Assembly (NCBI GenBank): GCA_001873285.1
Contig: MNYV01000003.1
Coordinates: 1 to 21,159 of the forward strand
DNA: 21,159 nt
Reading direction: 5' to 3'
DNA from: Nitrospirae bacterium CG2_30_53_67
GTDB lineage: Bacteria; CG2-30-53-67
Each line of letters opens with the position of its first letter. The first letter of the stretch is position 1. Under the pieces are notes generated by a model. It saw only the letters and a list, made by a program, of their open reading frames with translations. It was not told the DNA's origin and ran no database searches. Position numbers and translations under genes: made by a program. Below, one piece after another: positions 5,217 through 16,888 of the stretch.

Positions 5217-6315
5217 ATGATTGACGAGTTCAGGCAAGAAATCAAGGAAATCACCAGGAATTATCACCTCCTTCGGAGTCATCTTTGACCTTACAGAAAA
5301 CAGAAACCGTCTGGAAGAGATCGAAAAACGGATCACGGATCCGAATTTATGGCAGGATCCCCAGTCCGCGCAGAAAATACTGAAAGAACGGACCGCCCTT
5401 CAGAATCAGATCAGCGAATGGGAAAACCTGGCCCAGTCTTATGAAGACCTGGAAGCCCTCGTTGAATTATCCGATACGGAAAAAGACGAGTCCCTTTACC
5501 CGGAAATCCGCCAGACGATTGATGGCTTCAGAGAGAATTTCAACCGCCTGGAACTCAAGACCATGCTGGGCGAGGAGAACGACCCGAACAACGCGATCGT
5601 CAACATCCATTCGGGCGCCGGGGGGACTGAATCCCAGGACTGGGCGCAGATGCTCCTGCGGATGTACCAGCGCTGGGCTGAAAACAAACGCTTCAAAACG
5701 ACCGTGCTGGACCTGATGTACGGCGAAGAGGCCGGGATCAAGAACGTCACCTTTATTGTGGAGGGCGCCTATGCCTACGGCCTGCTTAAGGCCGAAGACG
5801 GCGTACACCGTCTGGTCCGTATCTCCCCGTTTGATGCCGGAAAACGGCGGCATACCTCTTTTGCCTCGGTTCTGGTCAGCCCGGAATTGGATGAAAAGGT
5901 CGAAGTGCCGATCCGTGAGGAAGACCTCAGGATCGATACCTTTCGGTCGAGCGGCGCCGGAGGCCAGCATGTCAATGTCACCGACTCAGCCGTGCGCATC
6001 ACCCACATCCCTACGGGGATCGTGGTTCAATGCCAGAACGAGCGATCCCAGTATAAGAACAAGGCCTCGGCCATGAAGGTCATGAAAGCCAGGATATACG
6101 AACTCGAGAAGAAAAAAGAGCAGGAGCGGCTGGAAGAGATGATGGGAGAAAGAAAGGAGATCGGTTGGGGGAGCCAGATCCGGTCGTATGTGCTTCAGCC
6201 GTACCAACTGGTCAAAGACCTTCGGACCAAATTGGAGACGGGAAATGTGGAAGGGGTGCTCAACGGGGATATCGATGAGTTCATCAATGCCTTCCTGCTG
6301 AAAAAAAAGAAGTAA
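5217..6315 (+). CDS. prfB: Peptide chain release factor 2, with programmed +1 frameshift
   Basis: RF2 recognises UGA and UAA at the ribosomal A site and triggers peptide release. The gene is in two frames. An ATG at 5217 (AAGGAG at 5201-5206) opens 23 codons that end at CTT TGA C (5283-5289). Skipping T5286 continues in the +1 frame from 5287 to the TAA at 6313-6315, giving 365 residues, normal for RF2. In the joined protein the RF2-specific anticodon tripeptide SPF is at 203-205 ([12 protein letters not shown]), and the peptidyl-hydrolysis GGQ is at 248-250 ([15 protein letters not shown]). A simple gene call in the downstream frame would start falsely at 5221. lysS follows after 8 bp, so prfB, lysS and lolC look like one operon. 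Regulation is autogenous: low RF2 slows reading of the internal UGA and favours the shift (known for the family). Confidence 0.95.
5268..5289 (+). promoter_or_regulatory. prfB programmed +1 frameshift site
   Basis: The slippery CTT at 5283-5285 is followed by the in-frame stop TGA (5286-5288) and C, the canonical RF2 arrangement. A Shine-Dalgarno-like GGAG (5275-5278) sits 4 nt before the CTT, close to the spacing of the E. coli site. CTCC at 5268-5271 could pair with this GGAG across a three-base loop. Continuous homology to RF2 only after shifting frames supports the function. Confidence 0.9.
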
Positions 6316-9229: not shown

Positions 9230-9880
9230 ATGCAAAAACTCACAGTCCAACTTCTGAAATCCGAAGCAAAAGCCTTTGCCGACCGGGAATCAGGGCACAA
9301 AGAGAAATCGCTTTTCGGTGTGACGGACGGCAAAGCGGTCGGGACTTATCTGGAATACAAGTTCCAGGAAGCACTACAGAAGAAATACGAGTACGCGTGA
9401 GGTTCCTCGGCGAAAGGAATAGACTTTCCAAAACTGGATGTAGACATAAAAGTGACAAGCATTCGGCAGCCACAATCCTCCTGCCCCTTTAAATCGGCAC
9501 GACAAAAAATATATGGACTCGGTTATTCTCTCTTAGTTTTTGTATACGACAAGAAGGACGAGCGGAAAACGCGCACCGCTACATTGGACATCAAACATGT
9601 TATTTTTATCGAGAGCAGTCAGACCGGCGACTTTCAGACCACGACGGGAATCCTTAAAATATCGGACAATAACGGCAACGCTGATGATCTTGTCGCTTTC
9701 ATGACGGAGCGTTTTTTGCCTGTGGACGAGATTCAAGCTGCGGAATTGGCGAAAGAAATCCTCAAAACCAGACCGAAAGTCGGCTATCTGACCATCTCAA
9801 ACGCTTTACAGCGGAGGCTTCAGTACGCACGGGTCATTGAACAGGCCGGCAAAGTCAGCGGCGTACAGCGCATAGCATGA
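9230..9880 (+). pseudogene. Type II restriction endonuclease (PD-(D/E)xK), interrupted by an in-frame TGA
   Basis: An ATG at 9230 with GGGAG at 9219-9223 opens a frame that reaches an in-frame TGA at 9398-9400 (codon 57) and then continues uninterrupted in the same frame to 9880, 216 amino-acid positions plus the final stop. The two parts together read as one restriction-endonuclease-like protein. There is an N-terminal helix with GTYLEYKFQEAL (38-49), then GSSAKGIDFP and VDIKVTS, giving a PD-(D/E)xK-like pair Asp65 and Asp72-x-Lys74. QPQSSCPFKSARQKIYGLGY follows, and the C-terminal part is intact. A single CGA-to-TGA change would explain the break. A downstream start (GTG at 9452) would omit the catalytic acidic residues, so an active enzyme is unlikely without readthrough. 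The final stop overlaps the methyltransferase start (ATGA at 9877-9880), as expected for a functional pair before the mutation. Codon choice differs from lolC. Confidence 0.78.
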
Positions 9881-11448
9881 CGATCAAAAAAACAAAAATT
9901 GAATTCGGAGATTTTCAGACGCCCCGCGATTTGGCCAGCGCTGTTACGACCTTCCTCCGCGACGCGGGCATTTCACCGTCCGTTATCGTGGAACCGACGT
10001 GCGGCCGCGGCAGTTTTGTACTTGCGGCACATGATGTTTTTTCTAAAGCGCGTCAGATATTCGCTTTCGACATAAATGGCGCCTATATCTCAGCTTTACG
10101 TAAAGAAGTCCGTGATGCACACGGCTTTTATTGGCATGTGACCCGGCAGGATTTCTTCGCCTACAATTGGAAAGAGTTCTTCGCGACGTTTCGCGGTGAA
10201 ATTCTCGTCCTGGGAAATCCTCCATGGGTTACCAATGCCTCTCTCGGAGCATTGGGAAGCGACAATCTTCCTAAGAAAACAAACTTCCAAAATCACGTCG
10301 GTTTTGCCGCGAAGACCGGCAAGGCCGACTTCGACATTTCAGAATGGATGTTGATCAAACTCCTCGAAGCCCTTGATGGACGGCGCGGCAGCCTGGCCAT
10401 GCTTTGTAAGACTTCAACCGCGCGGAAAGTGCTCAGGCATGGCTGGCTCAATCGGTTTAATATCGGTAAGGCAAGCCTTCATTTGATAGACGCTGCTAAG
10501 CATTTTGATGTTTCGGTTGACGCTTGTTTGCTAATTGTTCACACCGGCGTTCCGGACCTGTTGTCTACGGCAGGTGTATATGCAGACCTTTCTTTCGATC
10601 ATAAACTGACGACATTCGGTCTCGTAGGTAGAGACCTGGTCGCGGATGTTGACGAATATCAACGGTTGCGCGAGCTCGACGGTATTGCCTATTATACATG
10701 GCGCTCTGGCGTGAAACACGATGCGGCTTCCGTCATGGAGTTCAGTAAGTCCGGCGAGACACTGGTCAACGGTTCTGGTGAACAGGTCAAGATTGAACCG
10801 ACCTACCTTTATCCGTTGTTGAAGTCTTCCGACCTCGCCAATGACAGGCTTATACCGAAACGCTCTGTTCTTGTTACTCAACGCAAGCCCGGTGATGACA
10901 CGGAGTCTATTGCGAGAGCCGCTCCGAAGACGTGGGCTTACCTGCTGCGTCACGCGGAGGTTCTGGATCGGCGTCAGAGCATAATCTATCAGAAGCGACC
11001 GCGGTTCTCTGTATTCGGCGTCGGAGACTATACTTTCTCTCCATGGAAGGTGGCGATCTCCGGCCTCTACAAGAATTGCCGATTCGTAGTCGTCGGAAAG
11101 TACAAGAACAAGCCGGTGGTTTTAGACGATACCTGTTACTCCATTCCTTGTGGTTCCGAGGAAGAGGCAACTTTCGCAAGTCTTCTGCTCAATTCCGACA
11201 TCGCAAAGCGGTTCCTTCATTCTCTCGTGTTCTTCGATGCAAAGAGACCAGTTACTATTGACGTGCTTAATCGTATTGATTTGAAACGAGTGGCAGAAAG
11301 GCTCGGTTTAGAAAGAGAAGCACGTTCATACCTCAGAGATGCTGCGATGTTTGAGAGCCAACAAGGTCTGCTCGTCTTTGAAAAACAAGCGCAGTATCTA
11401 ACCAATCGCTCAAGAGGGACGCGGCTAAAAAGCCGCCGCGCCCCTTAG
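9877..11448 (+). CDS. N6-adenine DNA methyltransferase of a type II restriction-modification system
   Basis: This 523-residue enzyme transfers a methyl group from S-adenosylmethionine to adenine in a recognition sequence. The N-terminus has FGDFQTPRDLA. The SAM-binding motif I is VEPTCGRGSF (38-47), and the catalytic motif IV is NPPW (114-117). Residues from about 300 onward (YLYPLLKSSDL, then YTFSPWKVAISG) would form the target-recognition part, and the architecture resembles Eco57I-like gamma-type N6 methyltransferases. The start overlaps the stop of the broken endonuclease gene by 4 bp. The gene is intact, so the genome is probably still methylated. Codon use appears less GC-biased (more CGT, GTT, TTT) than in lysS or lolC, pointing to horizontal acquisition. 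The last codons lie in a small GC hairpin (GCGGCT-AAAA-AGCCGC, 11421-11436) with no T-run. The recognition site cannot be read from the sequence. Confidence 0.88.
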   Translation: MTIKKTKIEFGDFQTPRDLASAVTTFLRDAGISPSVIVEPTCGRGSFVLAAHDVFSKARQIFAFDINGAYISALRKEVRDAHGFYWHVTRQDFFAYNWKEFFATFRGEILVLGNPPWVTNASLGALGSDNLPKKTNFQNHVGFAAKTGKADFDISEWMLIKLLEALDGRRGSLAMLCKTSTARKVLRHGWLNRFNIGKASLHLIDAAKHFDVSVDACLLIVHTGVPDLLSTAGVYADLSFDHKLTTFGLVGRDLVADVDEYQRLRELDGIAYYTWRSGVKHDAASVMEFSKSGETLVNGSGEQVKIEPTYLYPLLKSSDLANDRLIPKRSVLVTQRKPGDDTESIARAAPKTWAYLLRHAEVLDRRQSIIYQKRPRFSVFGVGDYTFSPWKVAISGLYKNCRFVVVGKYKNKPVVLDDTCYSIPCGSEEEATFASLLLNSDIAKRFLHSLVFFDAKRPVTIDVLNRIDLKRVAERLGLEREARSYLRDAAMFESQQGLLVFEKQAQYLTNRSRGTRLKSRRAP

Positions 11449-11602: not shown

Positions 11603-11656
11603 TAAATAAATCGGAAATCTTTATAAATGCTGGAATATCTCATTTATGGAGGTATC

Positions 11657-13219
11657 ATGACCGGAACGGAGACCATCAAAGGCACGAAATTGGGCGCTCT
11701 CCTGATCCAGAACAAGATCATCACCGAGGAGCAATTAAAAGAGGCCCTGAAACGTCAATATCAGCAGGGGGGATTTCTCGGGACCAACCTGGTCATGCTG
11801 GGTTATATCGATGAAGAGACCCTTCTGCATATCCTGAGCACCAAGCTCGGAATCCAGAGCATCAGTCTGACCGGGATAGAAATCACTCCCATGCTCCAGA
11901 GGATGCTCCCGTTCGACAAGGTGAAACTCCACAATGTCCTCCCCATCGCCCTGGAAGGAAACACCTTTATCGTCGCCATGGCCGACCCCACGGACCTCAA
12001 GGTCCAGAATGACCTGGAATACACCCTGAACCGCTCGGTCCGGGGAGTCCTGGCTTCGGAAACCGAAATCCTGGAAGCCGTTGAATTCTTCGAACGAGAA
12101 GGATACGGCATCAAGACCTACGTTAAAACCGCAAAGAGCTCATCGAGAATGAACAGAAAACTCGACCTGAGAGAACTCCTGACGGCAACCGCCAAGAAAA
12201 AAGCATCCGACCTGCTCATCACTGCGGGGGTCCCGCCGAGTCTGAAACTGAACAATGAAATTATCCGGCTGGATTACCCGTCGCTGACGCCGGGCCAGGT
12301 GGAGGAGCTGGTTCTTTCCATCCTGACCGAGAACCAGAGACTGAAATTCGACAAACAGTCCGAGCTTGACTTTGCCTATTCACTCTTTGATGTGGGGCGT
12401 TTCAGGGTCAACGTCTACAAGCAGAGGAATTCCCTCTCCCTGACGGCCAGGAACCTCATGGATAACATCCCGTCATTCCAGGAGCTGGGGCTCCCCGCAT
12501 GGATCAAGGATTTCGCCCTCAAGTCCCAGGGAATGATCCTGATCACCGGCCCGGCCGGCCACGGAAAATCCACCACCATCGCCTCGATCATTGAGTACAT
12601 CAACAGCCACAGAAAATGCAACATCATTACCATCGAAGATCCGATCGAGTTTCTCCTGCAGCACAAAAACAGTAATGTGAATCAGCGGGAGGTGGGTACG
12701 GATACGGAATCCTTCTCCATGGGGCTCAAACATATCTTCCGGCAGAGCCCGGATGTGATCATGATCGGAGAACTCAGAGACTATGAGAGCATCTCCATCG
12801 CCGTCAGCGCGGCGGAAACCGGGCATCTCATCCTGGGGACGCTCCACACATTAAACGCAACCAGCACCATTGACCGGCTGATCAACGTCTTTCCCGGAGA
12901 ACAGCAAAATCAGGTCCGCGCACAACTCGCCGAATCGCTGCTCCTGATTCTTTCTCAACGTCTTGTTGCGACATCGGACGGGAAAAGAAGGATCCTGGCG
13001 TACGAAAAACTCATCAATTCGACTCGGGTCAAAAACCTGATCCGGAACAAGAAGACTCATCTGATCCGCACCCAGATGATGAACGACAAGGAAGATTTCG
13101 AAATCATCGACGCGAGTCTCGGCAGACTCGTGAACGAGGGAAAGATCCTCTACGAAGAGGCCATCAAGTTCGCGGACAACGAGAGCTTGTTTTCAGAGAC
13201 GGCAAAGAAGAAACCCTGA
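11657..13219 (+). CDS. pilT: PilT-type retraction ATPase with N-terminal MshEN-like domain
   Basis: Hexameric motor ATPase of the type IV pilus retraction class; 520 residues from ATG 11657, chosen because GGAGG is at 11648-11652 (an ATG at 11627 would add ten residues without a clear ribosome site). Residues 11-70 carry two tandem MshEN-type motifs (KLGALLIQNKIITEEQL, then LGTNLVMLGYIDEETLL); in MshE-like ATPases such motifs bind cyclic-di-GMP. The PilT core begins near 168. Walker A is GPAGHGKST (298-306), the Asp-box region is IITIEDPIEF, Walker B is DVIMIGELRD (366-375), and the His box is TGHLILGTLHT (388-398). The C-terminal RVKNLIRNKK corresponds to the AIRNLIRE motif of PilT. Canonical PilT is about 350 residues and lacks the first 160 residues. 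The gene converges on the DUF4388 operon. No pilin or PilB/PilC genes are in the window, so its system is uncertain. Confidence 0.88.
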   Translation: MTGTETIKGTKLGALLIQNKIITEEQLKEALKRQYQQGGFLGTNLVMLGYIDEETLLHILSTKLGIQSISLTGIEITPMLQRMLPFDKVKLHNVLPIALEGNTFIVAMADPTDLKVQNDLEYTLNRSVRGVLASETEILEAVEFFEREGYGIKTYVKTAKSSSRMNRKLDLRELLTATAKKKASDLLITAGVPPSLKLNNEIIRLDYPSLTPGQVEELVLSILTENQRLKFDKQSELDFAYSLFDVGRFRVNVYKQRNSLSLTARNLMDNIPSFQELGLPAWIKDFALKSQGMILITGPAGHGKSTTIASIIEYINSHRKCNIITIEDPIEFLLQHKNSNVNQREVGTDTESFSMGLKHIFRQSPDVIMIGELRDYESISIAVSAAETGHLILGTLHTLNATSTIDRLINVFPGEQQNQVRAQLAESLLLILSQRLVATSDGKRRILAYEKLINSTRVKNLIRNKKTHLIRTQMMNDKEDFEIIDASLGRLVNEGKILYEEAIKFADNESLFSETAKKKP

Positions 13220-13262: not shown

Positions 13263-13592
13263 TCAGGATCCGTTCATATCCGCGAGTTCTTCCTCCAGAT
13301 CAGAGGACTCCTCCAAAAGGCCGGGTTCATCCTTGGCGATCCTGGACGCTGCGCGTTCAAGGGCCTTTCTGACCTCCGGAATCAAATAGTAGTCTTCCAG
13401 AGGAAACCGGCATAGGAGGAGAGAAAGCAGATCGGCCTTATCCGGAACGGTCAGATCCTTCCGGATGATCATCATCGGTTCCCCTTTGATCCGGCAGAGG
13501 CCGCCCCGGCTTTTGCACTTTTCATAACGAACCTTGATGGACATTTTCTGAGCCAGGGCTTCCAACTGTTCCAGCATTTCTCTTGAATTCAT
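13263..13592 (-). CDS. Hypothetical protein, small and soluble
   Basis: A 109-residue protein with no signal peptide or membrane segment. A central part has KCKSRGGLCRIKGEPMMIIR, with two cysteines seven residues apart, then an alpha-helical LIPEVRKALERAASRI and a strongly acidic C-terminus (EESSDLEEELADMNGS). It starts 15 bp after the stop of the DUF4388 protein gene and is the last gene of the minus-strand run from pgsA. The order of basic core and acidic tail looks like a compact folded domain that could bind a partner. No family name is recognised, and the function is unknown. Confidence 0.7.
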   Translation of the reverse strand: MNSREMLEQLEALAQKMSIKVRYEKCKSRGGLCRIKGEPMMIIRKDLTVPDKADLLSLLLCRFPLEDYYLIPEVRKALERAASRIAKDEPGLLEESSDLEEELADMNGS

Positions 13593-13607: not shown

Positions 13608-14858
13608 TCAGAGACGCGTTTCGGCCAGCAGGTCATCATCGGTGCCTTCCCGCCGGTCTTCTCCCGAACTCCTTACCGTGATCGTCCTCCCTTTCACCTC
13701 AAGACGGTATGCCTCCCCCCACGGGTCCACGACCTCATTCTTTTCAAGAATGATTTCCTGAACCAGATCATTCAGAGCGCCGGGGAAGGATTCCGTCTCA
13801 AGGTAGTAGACCTTGGAAGCCGAAAGAATCCGGTCCATCTCCTGTAAGGCATGGACCTGTCTGATCAGTTCAAACCGATAAGCCATATTCCTTGTCACAT
13901 CAAACAAGATCCCGGCGCCCGGCCGCCTGGAAGCCGTGAACAAGAAAAGCACCGCCGACAACATGATGGCATAAGCAGCGAGGTTCCTCAAGATTTTTCT
14001 GACCCGCCGCCTCTTCCTGTCGATTTCCTCAACTCCTAAGACCGGGGGCTCCTCTCCAACAGGCAGGATCAATCCGGCGGAGACAAGATTAAACAGCGCC
14101 TTGCTGGTTTCAAACTCTCCGATCAGGCTGATATCGACCAGTTTCCGGACGGATCTTTCACCGTCCACGAGGCTGTATATTTTCTCTTCCTCATGGCTCA
14201 GGGGGAAATCTTTCTGCAGGGCCTTCCCTCTATCCTTAAGGGATTTATTTTGCTGTGACTCATCAAACATCATGTCGATGGCGCTGTCAATGTCACCCGC
14301 AAGCGCTTTGTCTGCCCGTTTTTCATCCGCTTTTTTGAAGACGAGGACATCGGAAGATACAACCCGGCGTACTAGCGGCCACTCGTCCGTGAGACGCATA
14401 CTCTCCATGAGGATCCCGTCACAGGGAATCGGGGCCGTATTATCCTTGTCATAATTCACGGGAACCTGCTCAAATCTGTAGTCCCCTTCTTTCCACTCGA
14501 AGATCTTGAAAACCGTCTCTCTGACCTGAAGCTGGATGATGGAGGAGAGATCCTTGCGGTGCACCATCTTTTCCTGTATGAGGATGTGTCCTAATTTTTG
14601 CCCCGTCTCCTTCTGGACGGCAAGAATCCTTTCAAGGTCTTGATCGGTGATCAGTTCCGCCCTGACCAGGATCTGCCCCAGGAGCCGGCCTTTGCCCTTA
14701 TGATAGGATTCGGCGGCCACGACCATGCCGTTCTCAAAGGTCACGGTGACGGTGTCTTGATCCGAGGTCAGGGTCAAGATCCCTGTTTTTTTCTGCATCC
14801 CGATGAGCTGCAGGATGTCCGTCATGCCGAAATCCTTGATCTTGCCTTCAAGGGCCAT
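13608..14858 (-). CDS. DUF4388 (PATAN)-MshEN-like protein with TM helix and GspG-like C-terminal domain
   Basis: A 416-residue protein of mixed architecture. Residues 1-55 form a DUF4388/PATAN domain (MALEGKIKDFGMTDILQLIG). Residues 58-110 hold two tandem MshEN-like motifs (LLGQILVRAELITDQDL and LGHILIQEKMVHRKDL). Residues 225-265 form a winged helix (IYSLVDGERSVRKLV). A basic stretch (RKRRRVRKILR) precedes a transmembrane helix at about 293-309. The extracytoplasmic end resembles the C-terminal half of type II secretion major pseudopilin GspG: FPGALNDLV, DPWGEAYRL (378-386) and SSGEDRREGTDDDL (397-410), the last like the calcium-binding loop of GspG. The N-terminus would be cytoplasmic and the GspG-like part periplasmic. 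It follows the TPR membrane protein gene by 32 bp. It may couple a cytoplasmic regulatory module to pilus or secretion machinery (inference). Confidence 0.8.
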   Translation of the reverse strand: MALEGKIKDFGMTDILQLIGMQKKTGILTLTSDQDTVTVTFENGMVVAAESYHKGKGRLLGQILVRAELITDQDLERILAVQKETGQKLGHILIQEKMVHRKDLSSIIQLQVRETVFKIFEWKEGDYRFEQVPVNYDKDNTAPIPCDGILMESMRLTDEWPLVRRVVSSDVLVFKKADEKRADKALAGDIDSAIDMMFDESQQNKSLKDRGKALQKDFPLSHEEEKIYSLVDGERSVRKLVDISLIGEFETSKALFNLVSAGLILPVGEEPPVLGVEEIDRKRRRVRKILRNLAAYAIMLSAVLFLFTASRRPGAGILFDVTRNMAYRFELIRQVHALQEMDRILSASKVYYLETESFPGALNDLVQEIILEKNEVVDPWGEAYRLEVKGRTITVRSSGEDRREGTDDDLLAETRL

Positions 14859-14890: not shown

Positions 14891-16888
14891 TCATCCCCTC
14901 GGCCTGTAAAGATGCATGACCGAAAGCCCGTACAGGAACAATGCCGGAATCGCGAACCAGAACCGTGCGCTTAAGGAGAAAGCCCGAACCGTCATCGGGT
15001 CTTGACAAAGGAAGTCCCGGAAAAACGCGTAGACGAAAAAAACCACGGCAAAAGAGAGCACGAAAAAGCCCTTCAAAAATCGGCCGGAGTAGATGTATCC
15101 TCCCCCCGGTATCAATAGCCCCAGGATCCTTCTCGTCTCGATTTTTTTATCCATGTATCTTCGGATCTCAATGATCTTCTTCGTCCTCTGTTTGACTTCC
15201 ACGCCGGACTGTTTTTCAAACACATGGATACATTGTGAACAGACCAAATCCATCTCAACGATGGTCCGGCATCTCCTGCAGTAGACCGCCCCGCACTTCA
15301 CGCAGCGGCGGGCAATACCGAAGCGTTTCCGTACATAATGAAGCGAAAAAACAGCAAGGAGCATGACCAAAGGGGCAACAAGATACAAGACTTTTCCCCC
15401 AAGAAAAGAAAACCCCTTCGTATGCATTCCGGCCATGGATAAGAGTTGATCCGTAAATCGTCCGGCGAGCCATTCCTTGGTGAAGGTCTCATCAATGAGA
15501 ATACGGTTGTAACTCGGGCCCAGGATATTCACATAATAAGAGATCCGGTCCGGATCCAGCTCCTTGGCCTTATTATACTCCGCCTCACTCTCCTGGAGCA
15601 TCAGCTGATCCCGGTGCGCCGCACTGAGATTAAAATAAGATGACGCAATTTGAGGATCGTGGGCGATCGCCTGCTTGTACATGTCGACGGCTTTTGCAAG
15701 GTCACGACCGGCATAAAAGGCGTTTCCCAGATTATTGTAATAGACGGCCATATCGGGGTTCAAAGAGACGGCCTTCTCGAGCCTTGCCTCTGCTTCTGCA
15801 TATTCCCCCCGTTTTTTGTAGGCCGTTCCGAGCATGAAAAACAGGGAATCGTCCTTGGGATGATGAGCGGTCAGACCGAGGAGAGCGGCGACGGCGGCAT
15901 CGTCTGAAACCCCATCCTGGTGATGGATGACGGCCTGGATCCAGTCGCTGTGCAGAAGCTCCATCCCCCGCTGGAGACCTCCCATATAAAAGGGACCCGC
16001 CGCCGTGAACAGAATAAACAGGAGGTGCAGGAACCGCTCTTTGCTTCTGCCGTAGCTCCAGAAAAGCAAAGCCCAGAAAAGGCACAAGCCGTAGATTCCC
16101 AGTCCGAACAGCAGAGGGGCGGCAAGGATCAGGGCCGTCATGGCCGCCGTCCCTGCTCGATGAGGTTCTCCAGGCAGCGCCTCGTAAATGTTGTGCATTA
16201 AAAGCGGATAATATCGGATGAGCTGAACCAGATAAAAGGCCCCGAAAAAGGCAATACCGATGATCATGAGGGTCAGGCTGACATTGATGATAAAATAAAC
16301 GGCATGATCAAAGCTCTCGGGGACGGACCGCAGGGCCATGATCCATTCGAGGGCAATTCGATACAGGTTCAATTTACTCTGCTTCCAGTAGACCTGCGCC
16401 ATAATTTTATGGGGTTCGGGGAGCCCGGGGGAGAAGGCTTCGGCAAAATTGCAGCGGGAGACGGCCTCTTCATGCCTCCCCAATTCAGAGAGGGTCCCGG
16501 CCTCTCGCAGCAGGGAGGCCGAATAAGGGCGCATTCGAACCGCTCCCAGGTCAATCATCTGTTCATACAATTTCTCAAGAAGCCCGGCGCTGACTTTTTT
16601 GTCGCCGATGGCGAGATACCGTTTCCTGAGGAACCACTCCTTCTCCAGCCTGTCGAAAGGGCGAAGGGAATCATTCGCCTCAAGATCGGACAGCGGGCGC
16701 CGAAGGATTTCCATGGGGACGTTGAGGGACGTCTGATCCTGAACCACATCGATCCACTCGTTGGGAGCGCCGGTTCCCGGAAGACCGATCAGAATCCCGC
16801 AAACGAACAGGACAAAGGATAAAAGGCGGGCAGCCGATCCACGCCTCAGAGAAAACCGTTTTGCCTGATGTAAAAGCATGAAGATCAA
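14891..16888 (-). CDS. Polytopic membrane protein with TPR repeats and a cysteine-rich zinc-ribbon-like segment
   Basis: A 665-residue protein. A hydrophobic segment at about 21-40 may be a signal or anchor. Residues 45-190 are helical and TPR-like. Several membrane helices lie between 197 and 305. Canonical TPRs run from about 345 to 450 (AVYYNNLGNAFYAGRDLAKA). A helix at 498-517 is followed by three CxxC pairs (CVKC 529-532, CRRC 537-540, CSQC 550-553), suggesting bound zinc. The last part has IPGGGYIYSGRFLKGFF and further helices to 660. The start is probably a TTG at 16888 overlapping the plsY stop, with a GAGAGG before it; an ATG at 16879 is an alternative. It sits between plsY and the DUF4388-GspG-like gene in the same transcription unit. 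The domain mix suggests a membrane scaffold. I do not recognise a named family. Confidence 0.75.
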   Translation of the reverse strand: MIFMLLHQAKRFSLRRGSAARLLSFVLFVCGILIGLPGTGAPNEWIDVVQDQTSLNVPMEILRRPLSDLEANDSLRPFDRLEKEWFLRKRYLAIGDKKVSAGLLEKLYEQMIDLGAVRMRPYSASLLREAGTLSELGRHEEAVSRCNFAEAFSPGLPEPHKIMAQVYWKQSKLNLYRIALEWIMALRSVPESFDHAVYFIINVSLTLMIIGIAFFGAFYLVQLIRYYPLLMHNIYEALPGEPHRAGTAAMTALILAAPLLFGLGIYGLCLFWALLFWSYGRSKERFLHLLFILFTAAGPFYMGGLQRGMELLHSDWIQAVIHHQDGVSDDAAVAALLGLTAHHPKDDSLFFMLGTAYKKRGEYAEAEARLEKAVSLNPDMAVYYNNLGNAFYAGRDLAKAVDMYKQAIAHDPQIASSYFNLSAAHRDQLMLQESEAEYNKAKELDPDRISYYVNILGPSYNRILIDETFTKEWLAGRFTDQLLSMAGMHTKGFSFLGGKVLYLVAPLVMLLAVFSLHYVRKRFGIARRCVKCGAVYCRRCRTIVEMDLVCSQCIHVFEKQSGVEVKQRTKKIIEIRRYMDKKIETRRILGLLIPGGGYIYSGRFLKGFFVLSFAVVFFVYAFFRDFLCQDPMTVRAFSLSARFWFAIPALFLYGLSVMHLYRPRG

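Follow-up and report, generated by a model that had tools for sequence, protein, structure and literature searches.

A DUF4388 protein with a membrane-tethered GspG-like domain and its conserved partner gene: a candidate two-protein inner-membrane signalling unit in bacteria

What might be the function of a protein that carries a PATAN (DUF4388) domain on one side of a single membrane helix and a domain resembling a type II secretion pseudopilin on the other? This question is raised by a gene in a 21,159-nucleotide stretch of DNA (contig MNYV01000003.1, positions 1 to 21,159, hereafter the window) from the genome of an uncultured lineage, for which the nearest named entries are Hainich-H32-bin143-1 and 'uncultured Nitrospirae bacterium ES_M_CG2-30-53-67_01'. 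ORF calling placed the 416-aa fusion gene on the minus strand at 13608-14858, a position that the initial annotation had given correctly while omitting the strand; the plus strand of this interval contains several stops. The architecture that had been claimed, DUF4388, MshEN-like motifs, a single helix and a GspG-like tail, was borne out by Pfam, NCBIfam and hydropathy. Full-length orthologues with 49-71% identity were found in five other genomes of the window's own family, which together with the window's genome form the six-member set used below for counts of invariance, and the same architecture recurs in many distant genomes, indicating that the fusion gene is not an assembly artefact. Every single domain is already known; neither their arrangement nor the two-gene unit to which the fusion belongs was found described in the openly searchable literature.

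Analysis of the GspG-like tail (residues 334-408; 13635..13859, minus strand) revealed matches at the level of both sequence and predicted fold. The Pfam T2SSG model (PF08334) recognized this region with an E-value of 4.9e-5 and 23.8 bits against a curated cutoff of 21, and the GspG equivalog model TIGR01710 scored 12.7 bits, below its cutoff of 88.85. Independent Pfam searches detected T2SSG in 11 of the initial 13 homologues (E up to 0.1) and in nine of 35 homologues that had not entered the profile (E up to 0.01). A C-terminal profile built from 13 tails of several lineages and searched against PDB chains retrieved GspG, EpsG and PulG chains first and almost exclusively, with no other structure above noise (best match 2kep, E 2.5e-8; other hits at E 0.06 or worse), and the family profile aligned with PulG over the C-terminal part (5wda, E 0.0037). 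The full-protein AlphaFold2 model from a single sequence (pLDDT 34) was not used; a three-sequence model of residues 310-416, with a low-confidence pLDDT of 51.6, showed, in the order known from pseudopilins, one long helix, another helix and three strands. When this model was compared with 350,542 chains using Foldseek, the top three matches were EHEC GspG twice and PulG (probabilities 0.94, 0.89 and 0.69; all with E > 0.01), which, because the pLDDT was only 51.6, we count as support and not as proof.

Two short elements of the tail point in the same direction within the window's family. The DPWG motif (residues 378-381; 13716..13727, minus strand) is invariant in all six family members and not invariant in distant homologues, so that the conservation expected of it holds at the level of the family. 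Also invariant in the six orthologues is the S-x-G-x-D....T-x-D-D loop at residues 397-409 (SSGEDRREGTDDD; 13632..13670, minus strand), including G399, D401, T406, D408 and D409. In the GspG structure 3G20, calcium is bound by the motif G-x-D-G-x-x-[GN]-[TN]-x-D-D with D117, T122 and D125 as side-chain ligands (PMC3396595). The loop of the fusion, G399-x-D401-RRE-G-T406-x-D-D409, fits this motif except for the fourth Gly, and D401, T406 and D409 are the equivalents of the three ligands, marking a candidate calcium site on the basis of sequence, as had been suspected for this acidic loop. Since the model follows the pseudopilin order and both the DPWG motif and the loop are invariant in the family, neither a failure to predict a pseudopilin-like fold nor a loss of DPWG among these orthologues spoke against the proposed identity of the tail, and we assign the C-terminal domain of the fusion as GspG-derived from its sequence. 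The source genome has a separate canonical GspG (E 1.8e-40), whose contig also carries GspE/GspF-type genes, and has PilB/PilT/PilC-type genes elsewhere.

The tail is predicted to lie on the periplasmic side. Hydropathy and charge identified a single membrane helix at residues 289-307 (13938..13994, minus strand), with seven K/R before the helix and two after it, and the N-side was the more basic in 35 of the 42 fusion homologues, predicting a cytoplasmic N terminus. On the cytoplasmic side, the DUF4388/PATAN domain (residues 4-160; 14379..14849, minus strand) matched Pfam PF14332 with an E-value of 3.9e-33 and 114.5 bits (cutoff 25), and the same model matched all members of two homologue sets (13/13 and 35/35). 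The winged helix proposed in the initial annotation, at residues about 217-268 (14055..14210, minus strand), draws its support only from conserved columns and from weak MarR/TrmB/HTH hits among part of the homologues. In addition, a weak DUF4388/MshEN-like protein with C-terminal TPRs is encoded at 317-1576 of the window (Pfam DUF4388 E 1e-4, below cutoff), and the source genome contains many DUF4388 matches overall.

The fusion is nearly always accompanied by a second gene. In the window this partner gene (14891..16888, minus strand) encodes a 665-aa membrane protein with a signal sequence, periplasmic TPRs recognized by Pfam, several TMs, a Cys4 zinc ribbon (CVKC...CSQC; 15230..15304, minus strand) with four invariant Cys columns, and a C-terminal PGxGxIYxG-TM region. 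In each of the seven distant genomes that the fusion itself had brought up, a partner homologue immediately precedes the fusion gene. For a wider survey, a partner C-terminal profile (A4) was run over 386 genomes, DNA around the best matches was taken for locus inspection, and genes around these loci were called by profile searches of all frames. A PATAN gene was immediately downstream in 51 of 54 partner loci, with a gap of -21 to +103 nt that was mostly within about 50 nt, and the same was true of 38 of the 41 loci for which the partner was the sole basis of selection. Nearly all complete downstream PATAN genes encode a membrane helix near residue 250-330 followed by a tail of 55-140 residues. 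The A3 profile recognized the tail at E<1e-4 in 27 of the 38 partner-picked loci, and of the other 11, three were cut by contig ends and eight were complete with degenerate or replaced tails. A DPWG-like motif was kept in about a third of all loci and the calcium loop in about a quarter, and the GspG domain thus tends toward reduction across lineages. Three of the 54 partner loci had no PATAN gene on the same strand; in L156 (genome G157) and L165 (genome G295), where the gene is missing, phoH follows a few hundred bases on, and loss or replacement of the PATAN-GspG gene is possible. The spread of the pair across the sampled genomes indicates that it is either ancient or widely transferred. 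Because the fusion is nearly always found in the same operon as the partner, the two, which occur in dozens of bacterial families, look like an undescribed two-protein inner-membrane signalling unit.

Starting from these domains, the sequence-based topology, the conserved operon and the broad distribution, we propose, with a probability of about 0.45, that the fusion and its partner form a signalling unit of the inner membrane that is built on a pseudopilin domain and acts on the machinery of type IV pili or of type II secretion (T2SS). We infer that the two proteins interact physically, which way the signal runs and which machine it reaches. The fusion is predicted to be a single-pass inner-membrane protein, with the PATAN, MshEN-like and winged-helix regions inside and the GspG-derived globular domain in the periplasm. 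It would make up half of a membrane unit, the other half being the TPR/zinc-ribbon protein of the adjacent upstream gene. The tethered GspG domain may dock on the periplasmic TPRs of the partner, on pilin-family subunits, or on both, and the cytoplasmic PATAN domain could pass the docked state to or from motor or polarity proteins such as PilB, PilT, GspE or MglA-like GTPases. The route by which signals from the cytoplasm arrive at the periplasmic part of type IV pilus and type II secretion machines is poorly understood, and a PATAN-pseudopilin unit with a dedicated TPR partner provides a testable candidate across dozens of bacterial families, as well as a function hypothesis for many proteins labelled merely DUF4388 or TPR.

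The main rival to this proposal, which we consider a serious possibility at roughly one chance in three, is that the pair is a general transmembrane sensor, in which the GspG fold has been reused to bind calcium or the TPR protein as a periplasmic ligand or partner, with the PATAN/winged-helix part controlling a process unrelated to pili or secretion, for example envelope homeostasis. Genomic context provides evidence on both sides. Within the window's family, pgsA-plsY-type genes precede the pair, and a gene for a MshEN-PilT family ATPase (11627..13219, plus strand; TIGR01420, E 2.5e-122) converges on it in 6/6 genomes. Between them in the window lies a 109-aa ORF downstream of the fusion (13263..13592, minus strand) with homologues in family relatives only (L066-L069) and no Pfam or NCBIfam match. 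The neighbourhoods retrieved from other lineages contained no full-length PilT-like ATPase, one lineage having a 97-residue partial match, and adjacency to pilT, which the initial annotation had suggested looking for in other genomes, was therefore rejected as a general context of the pair, being confined to the window's own family, as is the adjacency of type IV pilus or T2SS genes in general. The commonest neighbours elsewhere were phoH and ybeY (16 lineages each), pgpH (13) and lnt (eight), and it is the frequent phoH/ybeY/lnt context that keeps the general sensor alive; the phoH-ybeY synteny may, however, simply be inherited from an ancestor and have no bearing on function. Also favouring a general sensor is the dispensability of the calcium loop and DPWG, which are lost in many distant members while the tether, PATAN domain and partner persist, about eight complete tails being no longer recognised as GspG.

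Set against the general sensor are PATAN domains with known targets, which bind a pilus motor: a statement quoted in PMC10519157 has PATAN domains binding PilB in Synechocystis. In addition to the convergent PilT gene, MglA-like GTPases were found beside the pair in six lineages and roadblock proteins in five, and an association of MglA/MglB with PATAN genes has been reported earlier (PMC4316618). The GTPase and roadblock proteins were named by family search in one lineage, and the other neighbours from sequence appearance and cluster recurrence. In genomes G070, G341 and G211 the gene order was TPR protein, roadblock, MglA-like GTPase, roadblock-like protein, partner and fusion. Strong PilM matches (E<=1e-66) occurred in 39 of 51 pair-bearing genomes compared to 42 of 335 other genomes, a difference that is confounded by phylogeny. 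T2SSE and T2SSF proteins were present in all nine pair-bearing genomes tested, including the three with no detectable PilM; their presence in 13 of 14 control genomes makes this weak evidence. The link to pilus or secretion assembly that the initial annotation had claimed is one that we, too, infer.

A second alternative, which we regard as unlikely, is that the fusion is a cyclic di-GMP receptor in which the MshEN insertion binds c-di-GMP and relays binding via the membrane helix to the periplasmic domain. The MshEN-like insertion (residues 59-111; 14526..14684, minus strand) matched the NCBIfam MshE-related c-di-GMP motif NF053729 (E 2.3e-13, above the model cutoff at residues 60-109), which is present in 22 of 42 homologues, and the N-domains of PilF, PilB and MshE in PDB. 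Like MshE, PilB and PilF, the fusion has two 24-residue motifs with a 5-residue spacer, retaining the exact 24+5+24 spacing and G61, Q82, G90 and Q111 at the Gly-3 and Gln-24 positions; in contrast to those proteins, its insertion sits inside a PATAN domain and not at the N terminus of an ATPase, and the consensus Arg and Gly are missing. The tandem motif has been described with Arg, Gly, Leu and Gln in a strict and a relaxed consensus (PMC5013675), and the fusion fails both, with both motif Arg replaced (L59, K88) and both turn Gly replaced (E68, K97). The earlier reading of tandem MshEN-like motifs is thus upheld for spacing, Gly-3 and Gln-24 and not for the two Arg and two turn Gly that the c-di-GMP consensus requires, leaving c-di-GMP binding unsupported for the window's fusion, for which canonical binding was rejected. 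A few other fusion members kept one intact MshEN motif, and from several distant ones the motif is gone altogether.

The fusion shares with GspG/PulG (PF08334; 3g20, 2kep, 5o2y) a long-helix globular domain, DPWG, the calcium-loop residues and an N-in/C-out orientation. In contrast to these pseudopilins, it lacks a type III leader and cleavage site and has a large cytoplasmic domain instead, and the calcium loop is lost in many of its homologues. A prepilin cleavage motif (G|FTLxE) before the membrane helix was absent in 42/42 fusion homologues. With no prepilin leader, the pseudopilin domain of the fusion would be incapable of being processed and polymerised, and the fusion is predicted to be a pseudopilin domain permanently tethered in the inner membrane and not a pilus subunit. 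Accommodation in a T2SS or type IV pilus filament as a special (pseudo)pilin subunit is highly improbable, since despite the topology of an unprocessed pseudopilin and the alignment with PulG the fusion has no cleavage site, about 290 cytoplasmic residues precede its helix and the genome has its own canonical GspG.

Returning to the proposed signalling unit, a further possibility, less likely than not, is that the uncleavable tethered pseudopilin serves as a transmembrane coupler: in the periplasm, together with the TPR partner, it would sense or prime the (pseudo)pilus, and its PATAN domain would hold or gate an assembly or retraction ATPase or a MglA-type polarity GTPase. If so, type IV filament machines in many bacterial lineages would have in the fusion a regulatory element that has so far gone unrecognised.

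A similar layout is known from GspL and the PilM-PilN linkers, in which an ATPase is coupled to the periplasm through a domain in the cytoplasm, a single helix and a small domain on the periplasmic side; their domains are unrelated to those of the fusion and a sequence match between them was not found. PixE, PixG and LsiR of Synechocystis resemble the fusion in having a PATAN domain with a helical insertion, and act on PilB (PMC10519157, PMC7690835), but are described as CheY-like response regulators, whereas the fusion has no receiver domain and instead continues through a membrane helix into a GspG domain in the periplasm. The MasABK proteins of Myxococcus xanthus form a multi-protein membrane complex that is encoded beside mglBA and interacts with PilA (PMC3546991). 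As described there, MasA spans the membrane with two TMs, MasB is a lipoprotein, and domains of the fusion type are unreported; given this different topology and domain content, MasABK was rejected as a characterised homologue of the pair and serves as an analogy only.

Several additional features were observed in the window and at other loci. The MglA-like GTPases located beside roadblock proteins and the pair in L061 (5130-6368), L148 (15248-16465), L157 (12041-13258) and L168 (12339-13688) are extended at the C terminus by about 200 residues, with a SurA_N-like match in L061. Prepilin-like proteins of about 255-303 aa with a normal GFTLIE or GFSLIE N terminus and one or two DAWG/DGWG-type GspG domains are encoded in relatives (L057, L058, L047 and L048). 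The window contains a prfB-like release factor 2 gene (5221-6315), for which the TTG start of the ORF suggests the usual programmed frameshift upstream. Finally, two ORFs (142 and 523 aa) lie between a lolC-like gene and pilT at 9452-11448, and the longer of them weakly matches an N6 DNA methylase (E 0.0015); lolC and pilT adjoin each other in the family relatives L065, L067 and L069, which suggests that these ORFs are an inserted methyltransferase-type island.
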